From a virus: a DNA stretch of 30,578 bases. The position numbers were made by a program, and so were the translations under genes. Below the pieces are notes generated by a model, which was given only the letters and a program-made list of their open reading frames with translations, was not told the DNA's origin and searched no databases. The stretch is taken from positions 1-30,578 of IMG/VR virus record IMGVR_UViG_3300006749_000008; one strand, written 5' to 3'. Every line of letters begins with the position of its first letter. Position 1 is the first letter of the stretch. Positions 2,942 through 30,578 of the stretch are shown piece after piece.

Positions 2942-3943
2942 TTAAATGTTGTGCAACACACCTTGCGATGCAAGATGTTCAGCGTAAAGTTGAACTCGAG
3001 TATAGATTTTAGCACTTCTTGCGCAGTAACCAGAAATCATTTCGAAGTCTGACATACGGAAGTTAGCGTCACTATCCATAGCGAGCTTGATATAGTCAGT
3101 GTTAAGAGCGTAAGCAAAAACAGAGTTTGCATTAGCGCTTAGCGGCAAGAATGGGTCAGCCATCATTTGAGCTCCGTGGAACGCAAGTGATAATCTACCA
3201 CCATCAAGCTGTGCTTCGTCAATGAAACGTTCATTAGCGAACAAAGCTTTCTTATATGCAGCATAACCAGCAGGTGAGATAAGAATTAAGTCTGGAGACC
3301 TTCCACCTGGGGTTCTTAATTGACAATCAATATAAAGATTAGTCAAGTTTTCAATAGCAGTTGAAGTTGCAGCATCAAAACTACCACCACAATCCACTTG
3401 TTGATTTTGGTAATCATTAGGGAAAGATGACTTAGCAATTCCACCAACAGTATTGGTTTGAGCACCAAATGCATTTTCTTCTAAGAAACCTGCTTGAGTT
3501 TGTCCATTCAAAGTGTTTAATTCTGAAAGGATTGTAGAAGTTCCTTGAACTACCTGCTTTTCAAATTCACGTTGAAGCATACCCATAACAGATTTCATAC
3601 GCGCTTCGGCGATTGAAACAATAGCGCGCTCACCTTTATTAGAAAGTTCTTCTTTCTCAGTGATTACGATTGGAGCGACAAAGTCACACCAGTTATAAGA
3701 TGCGTTACGTAGAACGTCTTGCACAGCAAGATTTACAGGTTCATATCCGGAACTAAGTTGAGTGATTGAGCTATGCTCAGCCAAAATTAAGGGGACGTCT
3801 AATTTTTGTCCGCCATCATAAAAATCAATCTGGCCCTTTTTCTTCATCTGGTCGAGAAGTGGGGTAGCCTTAAAAAGGTTATCTACTTCTTCTTCCAGGA
3901 GGATACGAAGGGTCGATGATAATACGTCATTCGATATAGCCAT
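2942..3943 (-). CDS. Major capsid protein, 333 aa
   Basis: This is the probable HK97-fold coat protein. Evidence is its length (333 aa), its place directly after the scaffold gene and before the decoration-like gene, and a composition typical of capsid proteins. A helical N-terminus (MAISNDVLSSTLRILLEEEV) is followed by KATPLLDQMKKKG, an extended-arm region (DVPLILAEHSSITQLSSGYE), a long spine-helix candidate near residues 105-135 (ERAIVSIAEARMKSVMGMLQ) and a motif seen in many phage coats near residue 220 (PDLILISPAGYAAYKKAL). Start selection is secure (TTGGAGGAAAC before ATG). It has an unusually long structured 5' leader of 143 nt, described separately, suggesting its own expression control. 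Confidence 0.85.
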   Translation of the reverse strand: MAISNDVLSSTLRILLEEEVDNLFKATPLLDQMKKKGQIDFYDGGQKLDVPLILAEHSSITQLSSGYEPVNLAVQDVLRNASYNWCDFVAPIVITEKEELSNKGERAIVSIAEARMKSVMGMLQREFEKQVVQGTSTILSELNTLNGQTQAGFLEENAFGAQTNTVGGIAKSSFPNDYQNQQVDCGGSFDAATSTAIENLTNLYIDCQLRTPGGRSPDLILISPAGYAAYKKALFANERFIDEAQLDGGRLSLAFHGAQMMADPFLPLSANANSVFAYALNTDYIKLAMDSDANFRMSDFEMISGYCARSAKIYTRVQLYAEHLASQGVLHNI

Positions 3944-4956: not shown

Positions 4957-5502
4957 CTATGACATACGTGACATTAATAAATCGTCTTCTTCACCTTCTG
5001 GTGCTTGACGAGTTGGTGCTTCTGTTTCGACTTCTACCTTTATGGCATCAATTCTCATATCATCTTCACCCATTGGTTTTGCAAGAAAGGCTCGAAAAGC
5101 CTTGTCTTTTGCATATGCAAGTAGCTTACCTGCCATTTCTTTTAAATCTCTATCACTACTTATTTCACTCATTGCCATTTGTTCGTCACCTGAGTAGTCA
5201 CTATAAGCAGCCAGAACCATACCAAGCTTACGACTAATAGCTTCTGGCATAGCACCATCTATTTTTTCAGTAACTTGTTCTTCTGGTTCGGCACCTGGAA
5301 ATAATTTAAGTGCTTCGTTTAGTCCTTTGATAAATGTATTTGTTGCACTTGCACTAAATTCACCTTCTGGTGCAATTGCTTGAAACATCATTCCTTCTAA
5401 TTTGTCGGCTTGTTGTGCCATTTCGTCCATATTTTCTGGTTTTTCTAATGGTTGCTCACGTTCCATAAGCTCCATTGTCATTCCATCTCTTTCTTCGGCC
5501 AT
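4957..5502 (-). CDS. Acidic virion-assembly protein, unknown family, 181 aa
   Basis: I do not recognise the family. The protein is acidic and rich in methionine and glutamate, with predicted helices (KLGMVLAAYSDYSG, KEMAGKLLAYAKDKAFRAFL) and an acidic, probably disordered C-terminus (PEGEEDDLLMSRMS). I placed the start at the ATG at 5502, six nt after GGAG, rather than at an in-frame TTG four codons earlier. It ends 9 nt before the scaffold ATG. Its place between the portal-linked genes and the scaffold suggests a head-assembly or minor virion role, which is inference from position only. Confidence 0.65.
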   Translation of the reverse strand: MAEERDGMTMELMEREQPLEKPENMDEMAQQADKLEGMMFQAIAPEGEFSASATNTFIKGLNEALKLFPGAEPEEQVTEKIDGAMPEAISRKLGMVLAAYSDYSGDEQMAMSEISSDRDLKEMAGKLLAYAKDKAFRAFLAKPMGEDDMRIDAIKVEVETEAPTRQAPEGEEDDLLMSRMS

Positions 5503-12974: not shown

Positions 12975-13039
12975 CTTCTTCCCATAATGTAGAATGTAGT
13001 TATTGTTCCAGTTAAGAAACCAAATAAAAATATTATCAT
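12971..13039 (-). CDS. 22-aa membrane peptide
   Basis: This is a very short ORF at the head of the early cluster. Residues 1-19 (MIIFLFGFLTGTITTFYIM) form one hydrophobic segment, followed by GRR, as in a single-pass peptide with positive-inside topology. Its stop overlaps the next ATG (ATGA) and a GAGAGG sequence lies about ten nt before its start. These features favour real translation. It could be a toxin-like or inhibitory membrane peptide, or merely a leader coupling translation of the zinc-finger gene. Confidence 0.45.
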   Translation of the reverse strand: MIIFLFGFLTGTITTFYIMGRR

Positions 13040-13075
13040 ATACTCTATACCTCTCTCTTAATATATATATATATA

Positions 13076-13103
13076 ATTATATTATTAATATCTATAATAC
13101 TAA
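13076..13103 (-). promoter_or_regulatory. Candidate promoter of the early cluster
   Basis: On the minus strand, TTAGTA (13103-13098), a 16-bp spacer and TATAAT (13081-13076), about 37 bp before the first ORF of the cluster. The extreme A+T content makes chance matches likely, so this is one of several options. Confidence 0.3.
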
Positions 13104-13157
13104 GTAATTTTTAATTGTATAATAAATAATTTATTTTATTTTTTTTTGGATAATTGA

Positions 13158-13185
13158 TTTACAGTAGAATAGTTATTAGTATAAT
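13158..13185 (+). promoter_or_regulatory. Candidate promoter of the plus-strand gene
   Basis: TTTACA (13158-13163), a 16-bp spacer and TATAAT (13180-13185). A transcript from here would have a leader of about 240 nt that includes the whole 13309-13410 hairpin before the start codon at 13433. Confidence 0.35.
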
Positions 13186-13308
13186 ATATATAATAATAAA
13201 TAATAATAATAATATATCTATATAATAATACTCTCTCTAATAGTTATTAATTATATATTAATATTAAATATATTTATAAATTTAATTATATCTAATTATA
13301 ATTACTAT

Positions 13309-13410
13309 ATCTACTAAAGAATATAATACTGAAATAACTAATAATTTAATACCCAGACTTCTTTATTCTATTCAAAAATTAAATTCTAAATTTCAGTTTC
13401 TTTAGTAGAT
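13309..13410. repeat. Long bulged inverted repeat upstream of the plus-strand gene
   Basis: Three nested stems: ATCTACTAAAGAA (13309-13321) with TTCTTTAGTAGAT (13398-13410), 13 bp perfect; ACTGAAAT (13328-13335) with ATTTCAGT (13390-13397), 8 bp; AATTTAAT (13343-13350) with ATTAAATT (13378-13385), 8 bp. The right arms of the first two stems are contiguous, so the left arm bulges by exactly TATAAT (13322-13327). It ends 12 bp before the Shine-Dalgarno of the next gene. It may be an mRNA leader structure or a DNA cruciform. Confidence 0.8.
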
Positions 13411-13432
13411 TTTTATTTTATCAGGAAACATT

Positions 13433-13711
13433 ATGGCTATCTACATTACTAAATCTAAAGAGGAAACTAATGCACCTAATTTCCCCTCAGACGAAGAAGT
13501 TGCAGCAATAATTGAAAAAACTAATAGAGAACTACTGAGCAAACAATACCTCAAAGCTCTCAGGTCCGCAATCCGGACACTTGAGCGACACGGTATCTCA
13601 GCTCATACAGTTTCTAAGAGTTATGGTAAAGTAGAAATTAAAATAAACCTTCAGTTAGGTAGAGATGGTTTATATTTTACACCTATTCCAGATACAAATG
13701 GAGACACTTAA
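13433..13711 (+). CDS. Lone plus-strand protein, unknown family, 92 aa
   Basis: This is the only well-supported gene on the plus strand. The ATG follows AGGAA with 5 nt spacing. The protein has a disordered N-terminus, a long helical middle (SDEEVAAIIEKTNRELLSKQ, LKALRSAIRTLERHG) and a two-strand C-terminal part (GKVEIKINLQLGRDGLYF). I see no certain helix-turn-helix. It runs towards the late genes and ends inside the left arm of a 13-bp inverted repeat. With a candidate promoter, structured leader and flanking inverted repeats, it looks like an independent moron-type unit, possibly a regulator or exclusion factor. Function is unknown. Confidence 0.7.
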   Translation: MAIYITKSKEETNAPNFPSDEEVAAIIEKTNRELLSKQYLKALRSAIRTLERHGISAHTVSKSYGKVEIKINLQLGRDGLYFTPIPDTNGDT

Positions 13712-13758
13712 GATGCTACCCAATATGTTTTATCAAGTAACACCATTAAGTGTCTCCA
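13699..13758. repeat. Perfect 13-bp inverted repeat at a convergent gene junction
   Basis: TGGAGACACTTAA (13699-13711) and TTAAGTGTCTCCA (13746-13758) are exact inverted copies, 34 nt apart. The left arm contains the stop codon of the plus-strand gene; the right arm lies 17 bp beyond the end of the convergent minus-strand operon. Neither side has a T run, so it is not a standard intrinsic terminator. It could block or process both convergent transcripts, or be a recombination site. Confidence 0.85.
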
Positions 13759-13775: not shown

Positions 13776-14018
13776 CTAACGTTTATTTCTGATATCACTC
13801 TTGATTTCTTTCATCTGCTCTTCCAGAAAATACAAACGTTGGTCAAGTTTCGTAATAGCTTCTTTAAACAATTCCCTATCTTTTTCAGCATCCAAAAGAA
13901 TACGGTCAATAGAAGAATTTTGAAACAATACGAATTGCCTGTTCATATACAGCGCGACAATAACCGCAGCTGCAGGTCCAGTCAGGAAAGGTATGAGTTC
14001 CATCATCAACGTTTCCAT
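13776..14018 (-). CDS. Holin-like single-pass membrane coiled-coil protein, 80 aa
   Basis: The N-terminus has one hydrophobic segment (about residues 7-24, LIPFLTGPAAAVIVALYM), then a helical, heptad-like charged tail (AEKDRELFKEAITKLDQRLY, EEQMKEIKSDIRNKR). It is the last gene of the late operon, starting two nt after the fibre gene, where many podoviruses keep lysis genes. Length and topology suit a pinholin or XhlA-like holin with reversed order, or a spanin-like part. The Shine-Dalgarno before the first ATG is weak; a second ATG four codons on has a better one (GGAAACG). No endolysin accompanies it. Confidence 0.5.
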   Translation of the reverse strand: METLMMELIPFLTGPAAAVIVALYMNRQFVLFQNSSIDRILLDAEKDRELFKEAITKLDQRLYFLEEQMKEIKSDIRNKR

Positions 14019-29093: not shown

Positions 29094-30578
29094 TAGCTTT
29101 TCCCCTTAATAGTTTGTGTTGATACTGGAGTGTATTCAATACTATAACCAATAAAATGTAGCTTGGCTGATGTTGATAATTCAAAACCAAAACTACTTAC
29201 ATTCTTCATTGCAACAGGTATTCTTATTTCTGTAAGAATTGGTTCTTGTGCAAAATCTTGGTCCCACTTTGCAAGAAAGTCACCGGTAGATGTTGATGAT
29301 GCAGCATAGTTTGGTTGGTCTTTGTGGTCTGCTCTTTCCATTTTAACTGTTGCACTTTGTGTATTTATTTTACTATCTTCTACGTGCCAGTCACCATCGC
29401 GATAATATGTAATATTTACATCTTGTTGTCCAGTCGTGTAACAATACAAGTAAAGATAATGTATTTGTTTCTTTATTGCACCATAGCCAAAGTCGTGCCA
29501 TCTACTTCTAAACAAGCTTTCAAGTGGTAGGTTATCTTGTATAGCTCTATCTGCACCAATTGTTTGGTAACCTGCCTGACGTGTTGCACTTATTGCCATC
29601 AAACCATTACCAACTTCAGTGCCTTCTGGTAAAGAATTAAACTGACTTGCATTACCAAACTGGTGTCCAAAGATAAAGTTGCCATCATAATCAATAGTGC
29701 CACAAGACATTGGCCACCTATCTCTTACAGATATGCCACCATTTTCGTGTATAACTAAACCAATATTTATTTGGTTGTCACCATAGTCAGCAGCATTTAA
29801 CCAGTATTCTCTTTTCTCTGGCCAATATGTTGCAAAAGCTTTCTTTGTTCCACTACGACTGAAAGCTTCTACCATAAAATCAACACCTTTGCTCATCTTT
29901 ATAAGTTGTAATTCAGAACCTGCAAAGTTACCTTTGATACTATATACACCATCTTCCGCTAAGAAGACAAGACCGAAGTTTGGTGTCACCTGTATTGTCG
30001 CGTGCGACACACAACCAACACCCATTACAAATGGAGTTATAATAAAATTACCACTTTGGTCTTGTCTAATTACATCAACAGCGCGTTCTCTAAAAACAAA
30101 TAAATTGTTATAATAATTATAGAGACCGGTTATGTCACCACCGTCACGCCCGCCAACATCAAAAAACTGTGATGCACCGAAGCTGTCAATTTGTAAAGCG
30201 TTAGAAAAATATATTTTACTGCTCTCAGATTTACCACCATCAACAAAAAGTCTGTTGTGGAAACTACAAGCATATCTTGGATTTATTGCAGGAAATGTAA
30301 TACTATCACTTGGATTTGGAGCTGATGCACCAAGCTGGTCATCTTCCAAACTATCAATAATAATTTCTGTAGTATTGTCATACACAGTTAAACAGAAAAA
30401 TAGGTCTGAACCTTGGTTCCTGGTTCTATATAGTTTTCGTGCTACAGTGCCTCTGGGACCTATTGGCAGTTCCATAATGATACCTGTGCGTGAGGTCACG
30501 TTGGTTCCATCTTTGGCAAACTCTGTAGTCTTCCAAGTTACACTATCACTAAGCTGAGATATAGGACTTTCACTACCA
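29093..30578 (-). CDS. Tail nozzle / tail tubular protein B-like, main part (starts at base 800 of the window through the circular join)
   Basis: The frame is open to the right edge and is completed by bases 1-800; the last 123 bases duplicate that part. The full protein is 720 aa. Beta-propeller-like repeats include the motif YNNLFVFRERAVDVIRQ (about residues 383-399 of the full protein), a signature of nozzle proteins, and NRLFVDGGKSESSKIYFSN (about 334-352). A later stretch GTKKAFATYWPEKREYWLNA (about residues 468-487) is also typical. It follows the adaptor and precedes three tail or receptor-type genes. It may close the tail channel and hold the fibres. The GTG at 30499 is internal and not the start. 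Confidence 0.8.
   Translation of the reverse strand, partial: GSESPISQLSDSVTWKTTEFAKDGTNVTSRTGIIMELPIGPRGTVARKLYRTRNQGSDLFFCLTVYDNTTEIIIDSLEDDQLGASAPNPSDSITFPAINPRYACSFHNRLFVDGGKSESSKIYFSNALQIDSFGASQFFDVGGRDGGDITGLYNYYNNLFVFRERAVDVIRQDQSGNFIITPFVMGVGCVSHATIQVTPNFGLVFLAEDGVYSIKGNFAGSELQLIKMSKGVDFMVEAFSRSGTKKAFATYWPEKREYWLNAADYGDNQINIGLVIHENGGISVRDRWPMSCGTIDYDGNFIFGHQFGNASQFNSLPEGTEVGNGLMAISATRQAGYQTIGADRAIQDNLPLESLFRSRWHDFGYGAIKKQIHYLYLYCYTTGQQDVNITYYRDGDWHVEDSKINTQSATVKMERADHKDQPNYAASSTSTGDFLAKWDQDFAQEPILTEIRIPVAMKNVSSFGFELSTSAKLHFIGYSIEYTPVSTQTIKGKS
30456..30578. repeat. Right copy of 123-bp terminal direct repeat (contig overlap)
   Basis: Exact copy of bases 1-123 at the other end of the window. 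Removing one copy restores a continuous 720-codon tail gene, so the contig represents a closed or permuted molecule of about 30,455 bp. Confidence 0.95.

Follow-up and report, generated by a model that had tools for sequence, protein, structure and literature searches.

The window analyzed here is the whole of IMG/VR virus record IMGVR_UViG_3300006749_000008 (30,578 bases). Positions 1-123 and 30456-30578 are identical, forming an exact 123-bp end repeat, and contig L002 spans the junction of these ends at 99.8-99.9% identity. The record itself carries no completeness estimate; the identical ends and the contig across the junction indicate that it is a complete circular map of ~30,455 bp. The terminase, portal, capsid, and tail proteins place the window in a lineage known here from metagenome contigs only. 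The best isolate matches show ~29% identity for the terminase and at most 28% for the capsid, the portal has no match among isolates, and no near DNA relatives of the window were found in phage records. The source is an uncultivated, probably marine phage. The minus strand carries all supported genes but one, which is at 13433-13711 (+). No replication protein or initiator gene was recognized among the proteins scanned, many of which are of unknown function.

The single plus-strand gene is preceded by a 458-bp control region with 85% A+T, the lowest GC of the genome, at the junction of divergent transcription. It contains a 102-nt inverted repeat. The features of the locus are as follows.

12975-13432, no strand: noncoding, AT-rich control region (14.8% GC), flanked by the divergent early operon (minus strand) and the single plus-strand gene.
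13158-13185, plus strand: best upstream match to a sigma-70-like promoter, TTTACA-16-TATAAT (11/12); a putative promoter that would transcribe the whole hairpin.
13309-13321, plus strand: left arm of stem 1, ATCTACTAAAGAA, with the half-unit TACTAAA at 13312-13318; exact complement of 13398-13410.
13322-13327, plus strand: TATAAT bulge, unsupported as a promoter -10.
13328-13335, plus strand: left arm of stem 2, ACTGAAAT, with the half-unit ACTGAA.
13343-13350, plus strand: left arm of stem 3, AATTTAAT, A/T only; chance-level.
13378-13385, plus strand: right arm of stem 3, ATTAAATT, A/T only; chance-level.
13390-13397, plus strand: right arm of stem 2, ATTTCAGT, exact complement of the left arm.
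13398-13410, plus strand: right arm of stem 1, TTCTTTAGTAGAT; with stem 2 it forms an uninterrupted inverted unit, TACTAAAGAAACTGAA, on the minus strand at 13392-13407.
13410-13419, plus strand: T-rich tract 3' of the hairpin, TTTTTATTTT, read directly.
13423-13428, plus strand: Shine-Dalgarno-like AGGAAA outside the hairpin, read directly.
13433-13711, plus strand: 92-aa gene of unknown family, the only plus-strand gene; its in-frame codon score is like that of neighboring genes.
13699-13758, minus strand: second inverted repeat, forming a near-perfect hairpin of 60 nt at the late operon's 3' end; it is convergent with the plus-strand gene and overlaps the end of that gene.

The architecture that the earlier note had described, at these positions and upstream of the single plus-strand gene, is borne out. 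The repeat comprises 13 + 8 + 8 perfect pairs, its arms are exact reverse complements, and TATAAT is a one-sided bulge, with stems 1 and 2 directly adjoining on the right. Only one other perfect inverted repeat in the window, 13699-13758, has arms of at least 12 nt and a span of at most 160 nt.

Because the region has a GC content of only 14.8%, dinucleotide shuffles of the local 458-bp, 85% A+T region (n = 600) are an appropriate null. A 13-bp arm of any composition is fairly common in this background (67/600 shuffles), whereas a 13-bp arm with at least three G/C occurs in 0/600 and 21 bp in two stems in 1/600. Stem 3 lies in the inner 54 nt, whose fold energy is -0.1 kcal/mol (z +0.8), and does not exceed chance. 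The earlier claim that such a structure is unlikely by chance even in AT-rich DNA therefore holds for the outer two stems and fails for stem 3. RNA folding with shuffled controls, the check proposed at the outset, returns the 102-nt structure as the predicted minimum-energy fold, with z -4.1 on the plus strand and -3.3 on the minus strand. DNA folding predicts the same structure (z -3.45, 0/200 shuffles), and a wider RNA window gives a weaker value (z -2.7, 5/200). The two strands fold about equally, so action as RNA and action as DNA are indistinguishable by this measure.

The arms recur in a diverged relative, L102, which belongs to the same terminase lineage and whose homologue of the gene neighboring the control region (13776-14018) encodes a 94% identical product. 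Its AT-rich region carries two facing copies, TACTAAATAAAACTGAA at 5225(+) and TACTAAAGAACTGAA at 5376-5390(-), oriented like the two arms of the window. The inverted unit of 13392-13407 is thus conserved at both sites, as TACTAAA-N4-ACTGAA at 5225-5241(+) and as TACTAAA-N2-ACTGAA at 5376-5390(-). In 1.47 Mb of fetched related loci, the pattern TACTAAA-N(0-10)-ACTGAA occurs in the window and L102 only, twice in each, and 0/20,000 shuffles of the L102 region carried both copies. The L102 pair forms the base of a hairpin of 166 nt (z -4.0 on the plus strand, -5.0 on the minus strand), and the inner part of this hairpin is likewise more stable than expected by chance (z -3.3 and -3.6). Folding beyond shuffles is therefore seen in more than one genome, as expected of a pairing-based element. 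The half-unit linkers measure 2, 3, 4, and 9 nt, all at the junction of stems 1 and 2, and the span from TACTAAA to TACTAAA is 96 nt in the window versus 166 nt in L102. No compensatory two-sided changes are found within the unit in these two genomes, whose conserved pairs are identical; the pair adjoining the unit is C-G in the window and a broken A-A in L102.

The arms were found in one relative only, L102. No hairpin with the TACTAAA/ACTGAA unit was seen in more distant relatives, further contigs retrieved with a single arm contained no additional facing pair among the matches listed, and a search of IMG/VR for the exact stem pattern gave none. Rfam 15 at the gathering score places no structured RNA family in the window, and hits at a relaxed threshold are weak and spurious. 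A literature search returned no directly relevant paper. Inverted repeats of ~100-nt span in L023, L104, L109, and L029 were considered as homologues and rejected, as they share no arm sequence and lie in different contexts; those of L029 and L109 are non-random in their own right. A nested ACTGAA/TTCAGT pair in L106 folds no better than its shuffles.

AT-rich regions occupy the syntenic position in L102-L109. The layout common to relatives is a homologue of 13776-14018, which in the window lies beyond the plus-strand gene on the other strand, then an AT-rich region of 300-500 bp, and then the early genes. In several relatives, the homologue is separated from the AT-rich region by a 60-nt hairpin together with one or two genes on the opposite strand. 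AGAGAG tracts occur in 9/10 control regions of relatives (1.75 expected) and AAACTGA in 6/10 (0.73 expected). TGTAA iterons (TGTAATCAAATGTAA) spaced 10-12 bp apart are present at L103:4707-4759, L105:4678-4720, and L104:1592-1625; such helically phased direct repeats were looked for in the window and none were found, and DnaA boxes show no clear excess. The divergent junction, the lowest GC, the AGAGAG and AAACTGA motifs, and the phased repeats of L103-L105 suggest a region controlling transcription or replication. By its position and composition, 12975-13432 would be the likeliest site of replication initiation. The control regions of L103, L104, L105, and L106 also have in common a block, AACCAGTAGAACGG[CACCAG]CCGGTTCGTATCGGTTT, with a covarying hairpin (GGC/GCC versus GGT/ACC in L105), adjoined by a polypurine tract, TACTGAGGGGAA..GAGAGAG.

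Other hairpins were seen in the window and in these loci. The 60-nt hairpin, directly after the last late gene, has counterparts at L105:4275-4334, L104:1126-1184, and L103:4249-4322. The 13-bp arms of the window and L105 differ almost wholly, yet span and perfect pairing are kept; the apical loop is GATAAAACATA in the window, L103, and L105 and TTAAAACATA in L104. This pattern suggests that the late transcript has a structured RNA at its 3' end. A further recurrent element consists of AAGGAG, a covarying 5-9 bp stem, and a loop, AATGTCTAGAAA, that contains ATG; it matches no Rfam family. It occurs at L026:6885(+), L102:5091(+), L107:5373-5434(-), L029:3753(-), L129:8751(-), L130:9861(-), L177:12608(-), L121:7097-7154(-), and L109:5030-5093(+). 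In L102, L026, L107, and L109, it is followed by a word like TTTCAAAGAACTG (with greater divergence in L109) and by a small hairpin. L029, a 33-kb relative, holds in its AT-rich region (3706-3812) a hairpin of 107 nt (z about -7.7) whose outer stem is 17 bp long and perfect and which encloses the AATGTCTA element.

The structure of the 102-nt repeat is non-random, and L102, a diverged relative in which span and linkers differ, conserves both facing units. The repeat probably represents a genuine control element of the hairpin type and not a promoter. We tentatively read it, with somewhat less than even confidence, as a cis-acting hairpin or cruciform of the phage's transcription/replication control region, located where divergent transcription starts. 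The functional core would be the bipartite unit TACTAAA + ACTGAA in two facing inverted copies, whose pairing could give two short stems flanking an asymmetric bulge. The loop could vary freely, as could the bulge, which here reads TATAAT. The step served may be the initiation of transcription or of replication.

The facing copies could instead be a pair of inverted protein-binding sites, each a duplex operator or initiator site for a phage or host protein, perhaps with looping. The unit is kept in sequence and not only in pairing, without compensatory change and with the adjoining pair lost, which leaves room for two separate protein sites; words of the AAACTGA type are overrepresented in the relatives' control regions, and relatives also carry other phased sites in the form of the TGTAA iterons. 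However, a rigid contiguous site would not tolerate linkers of 2 to 9 nt, nor would a phased loop tolerate a shift of 70 bp, ~6.7 helical turns, in the distance between copies. Half-units that are kept while linkers, loop, and span vary fit a hairpin or cruciform, in which such changes are tolerated as bulges, better than a rigid operator for a single protein. We therefore consider paired binding sites unlikely and suggest that the arms act by pairing. It is very improbable that the repeat arose by chance in very AT-rich DNA. Long arms of any composition do appear in shuffles, and stem 3 is at chance level, but the G/C-containing arms and the two-stem 21 bp stand apart from the shuffles, and the recurrence of both arms, facing, in L102 disfavors this explanation.

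The remaining alternatives tie the repeat to the plus-strand gene. As an RNA 5' leader of the 92-aa gene, the hairpin might be an attenuator, an RNase III site, or an mRNA stabilizer, with the Shine-Dalgarno-like sequence left free. It ends 22 nt before the ATG, followed by TTTTTATTTT; its two stems and asymmetric bulge resemble phage RNase III sites; and transcription from the best plus-strand promoter-like match, which is located upstream, would cover the entire hairpin. The promoter scan yields 17 sigma-70-like matches versus 9.4 +/- 3.3 expected, making 13158-13185 a weak promoter candidate. Folding shows no clear strand preference, no Rfam family matches, and a scan for intrinsic terminators (a short G+C-rich stem-loop plus a U run) found 0 and makes no call at the hairpin. 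Searches for relatives of the 92-aa gene covered viral contigs, the contigs of the lineage, and phage records and found none. The earlier note had named, as refuting, genomes that keep the gene with unpaired changes in both arms; L102 presents the converse, as it keeps the arms but has no 92-aa-type gene downstream, which links the element's conserved role to the control region and not to the gene. The mRNA switch for this gene envisaged in the earlier note is thus not a conserved role, and a leader function, though possible, is rather unlikely. The same note had suggested that the bulge could be a promoter -10; in this reading it would serve the plus-strand gene, and the hairpin would compete with the promoter. 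The hexamer matches TATAAT exactly, lies on the coding strand, and precedes the ATG by 106 nt. However, no -35-like hexamer lies 16-18 nt upstream (the promoter scan lists no pair ending at 13327), and the region holds 8 copies of TATAAT on the plus strand (about 4.6 expected) and 4 on the minus strand within 458 bp. A transcript from the bulge would also start within the hairpin and lose the left arm. Conservation of TATAAT had been offered as support for a promoter, but L102 lacks it, its linkers being TAAA and GA. These observations make the bulge promoter the least credible explanation, and a most improbable one.

The repeat pinpoints the control region in a phage lineage that is uncultivated and has no close isolate relative, and it provides a concrete two-part cis-element that, with the neighboring conserved hairpins, is a candidate for a role in replication or early transcription. 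That the facing pair defines a new class of phage origin or control hairpin, with a fixed stem sequence and a drifting bulge, loop, and span, in a lineage without recognized replication genes, is a speculative idea that we regard as improbable.

Three kinds of known system bear comparison. Intrinsic terminators and attenuators likewise have a hairpin followed by a T-rich tract on the plus strand, whereas the present stem has an AT-rich base and a loop of tens of nucleotides, and the terminator scan finds none. T7-type RNase III hairpins upstream of phage genes resemble the repeat in lying shortly before a start codon and in having ~21 bp divided between two stems by an asymmetric internal bulge; the difference is that L102 keeps the element without the gene. 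Hairpins and cruciforms of AT-rich phage and plasmid origins or divergent promoters differ in that the window shows no iterons, no clear DnaA-box excess, and no recognized initiator gene; their phased iterons match relatives L103-L105 rather than the window. The window shares with these origin-region systems a noncoding setting, the lowest GC, a divergent junction, and inverted repeats.
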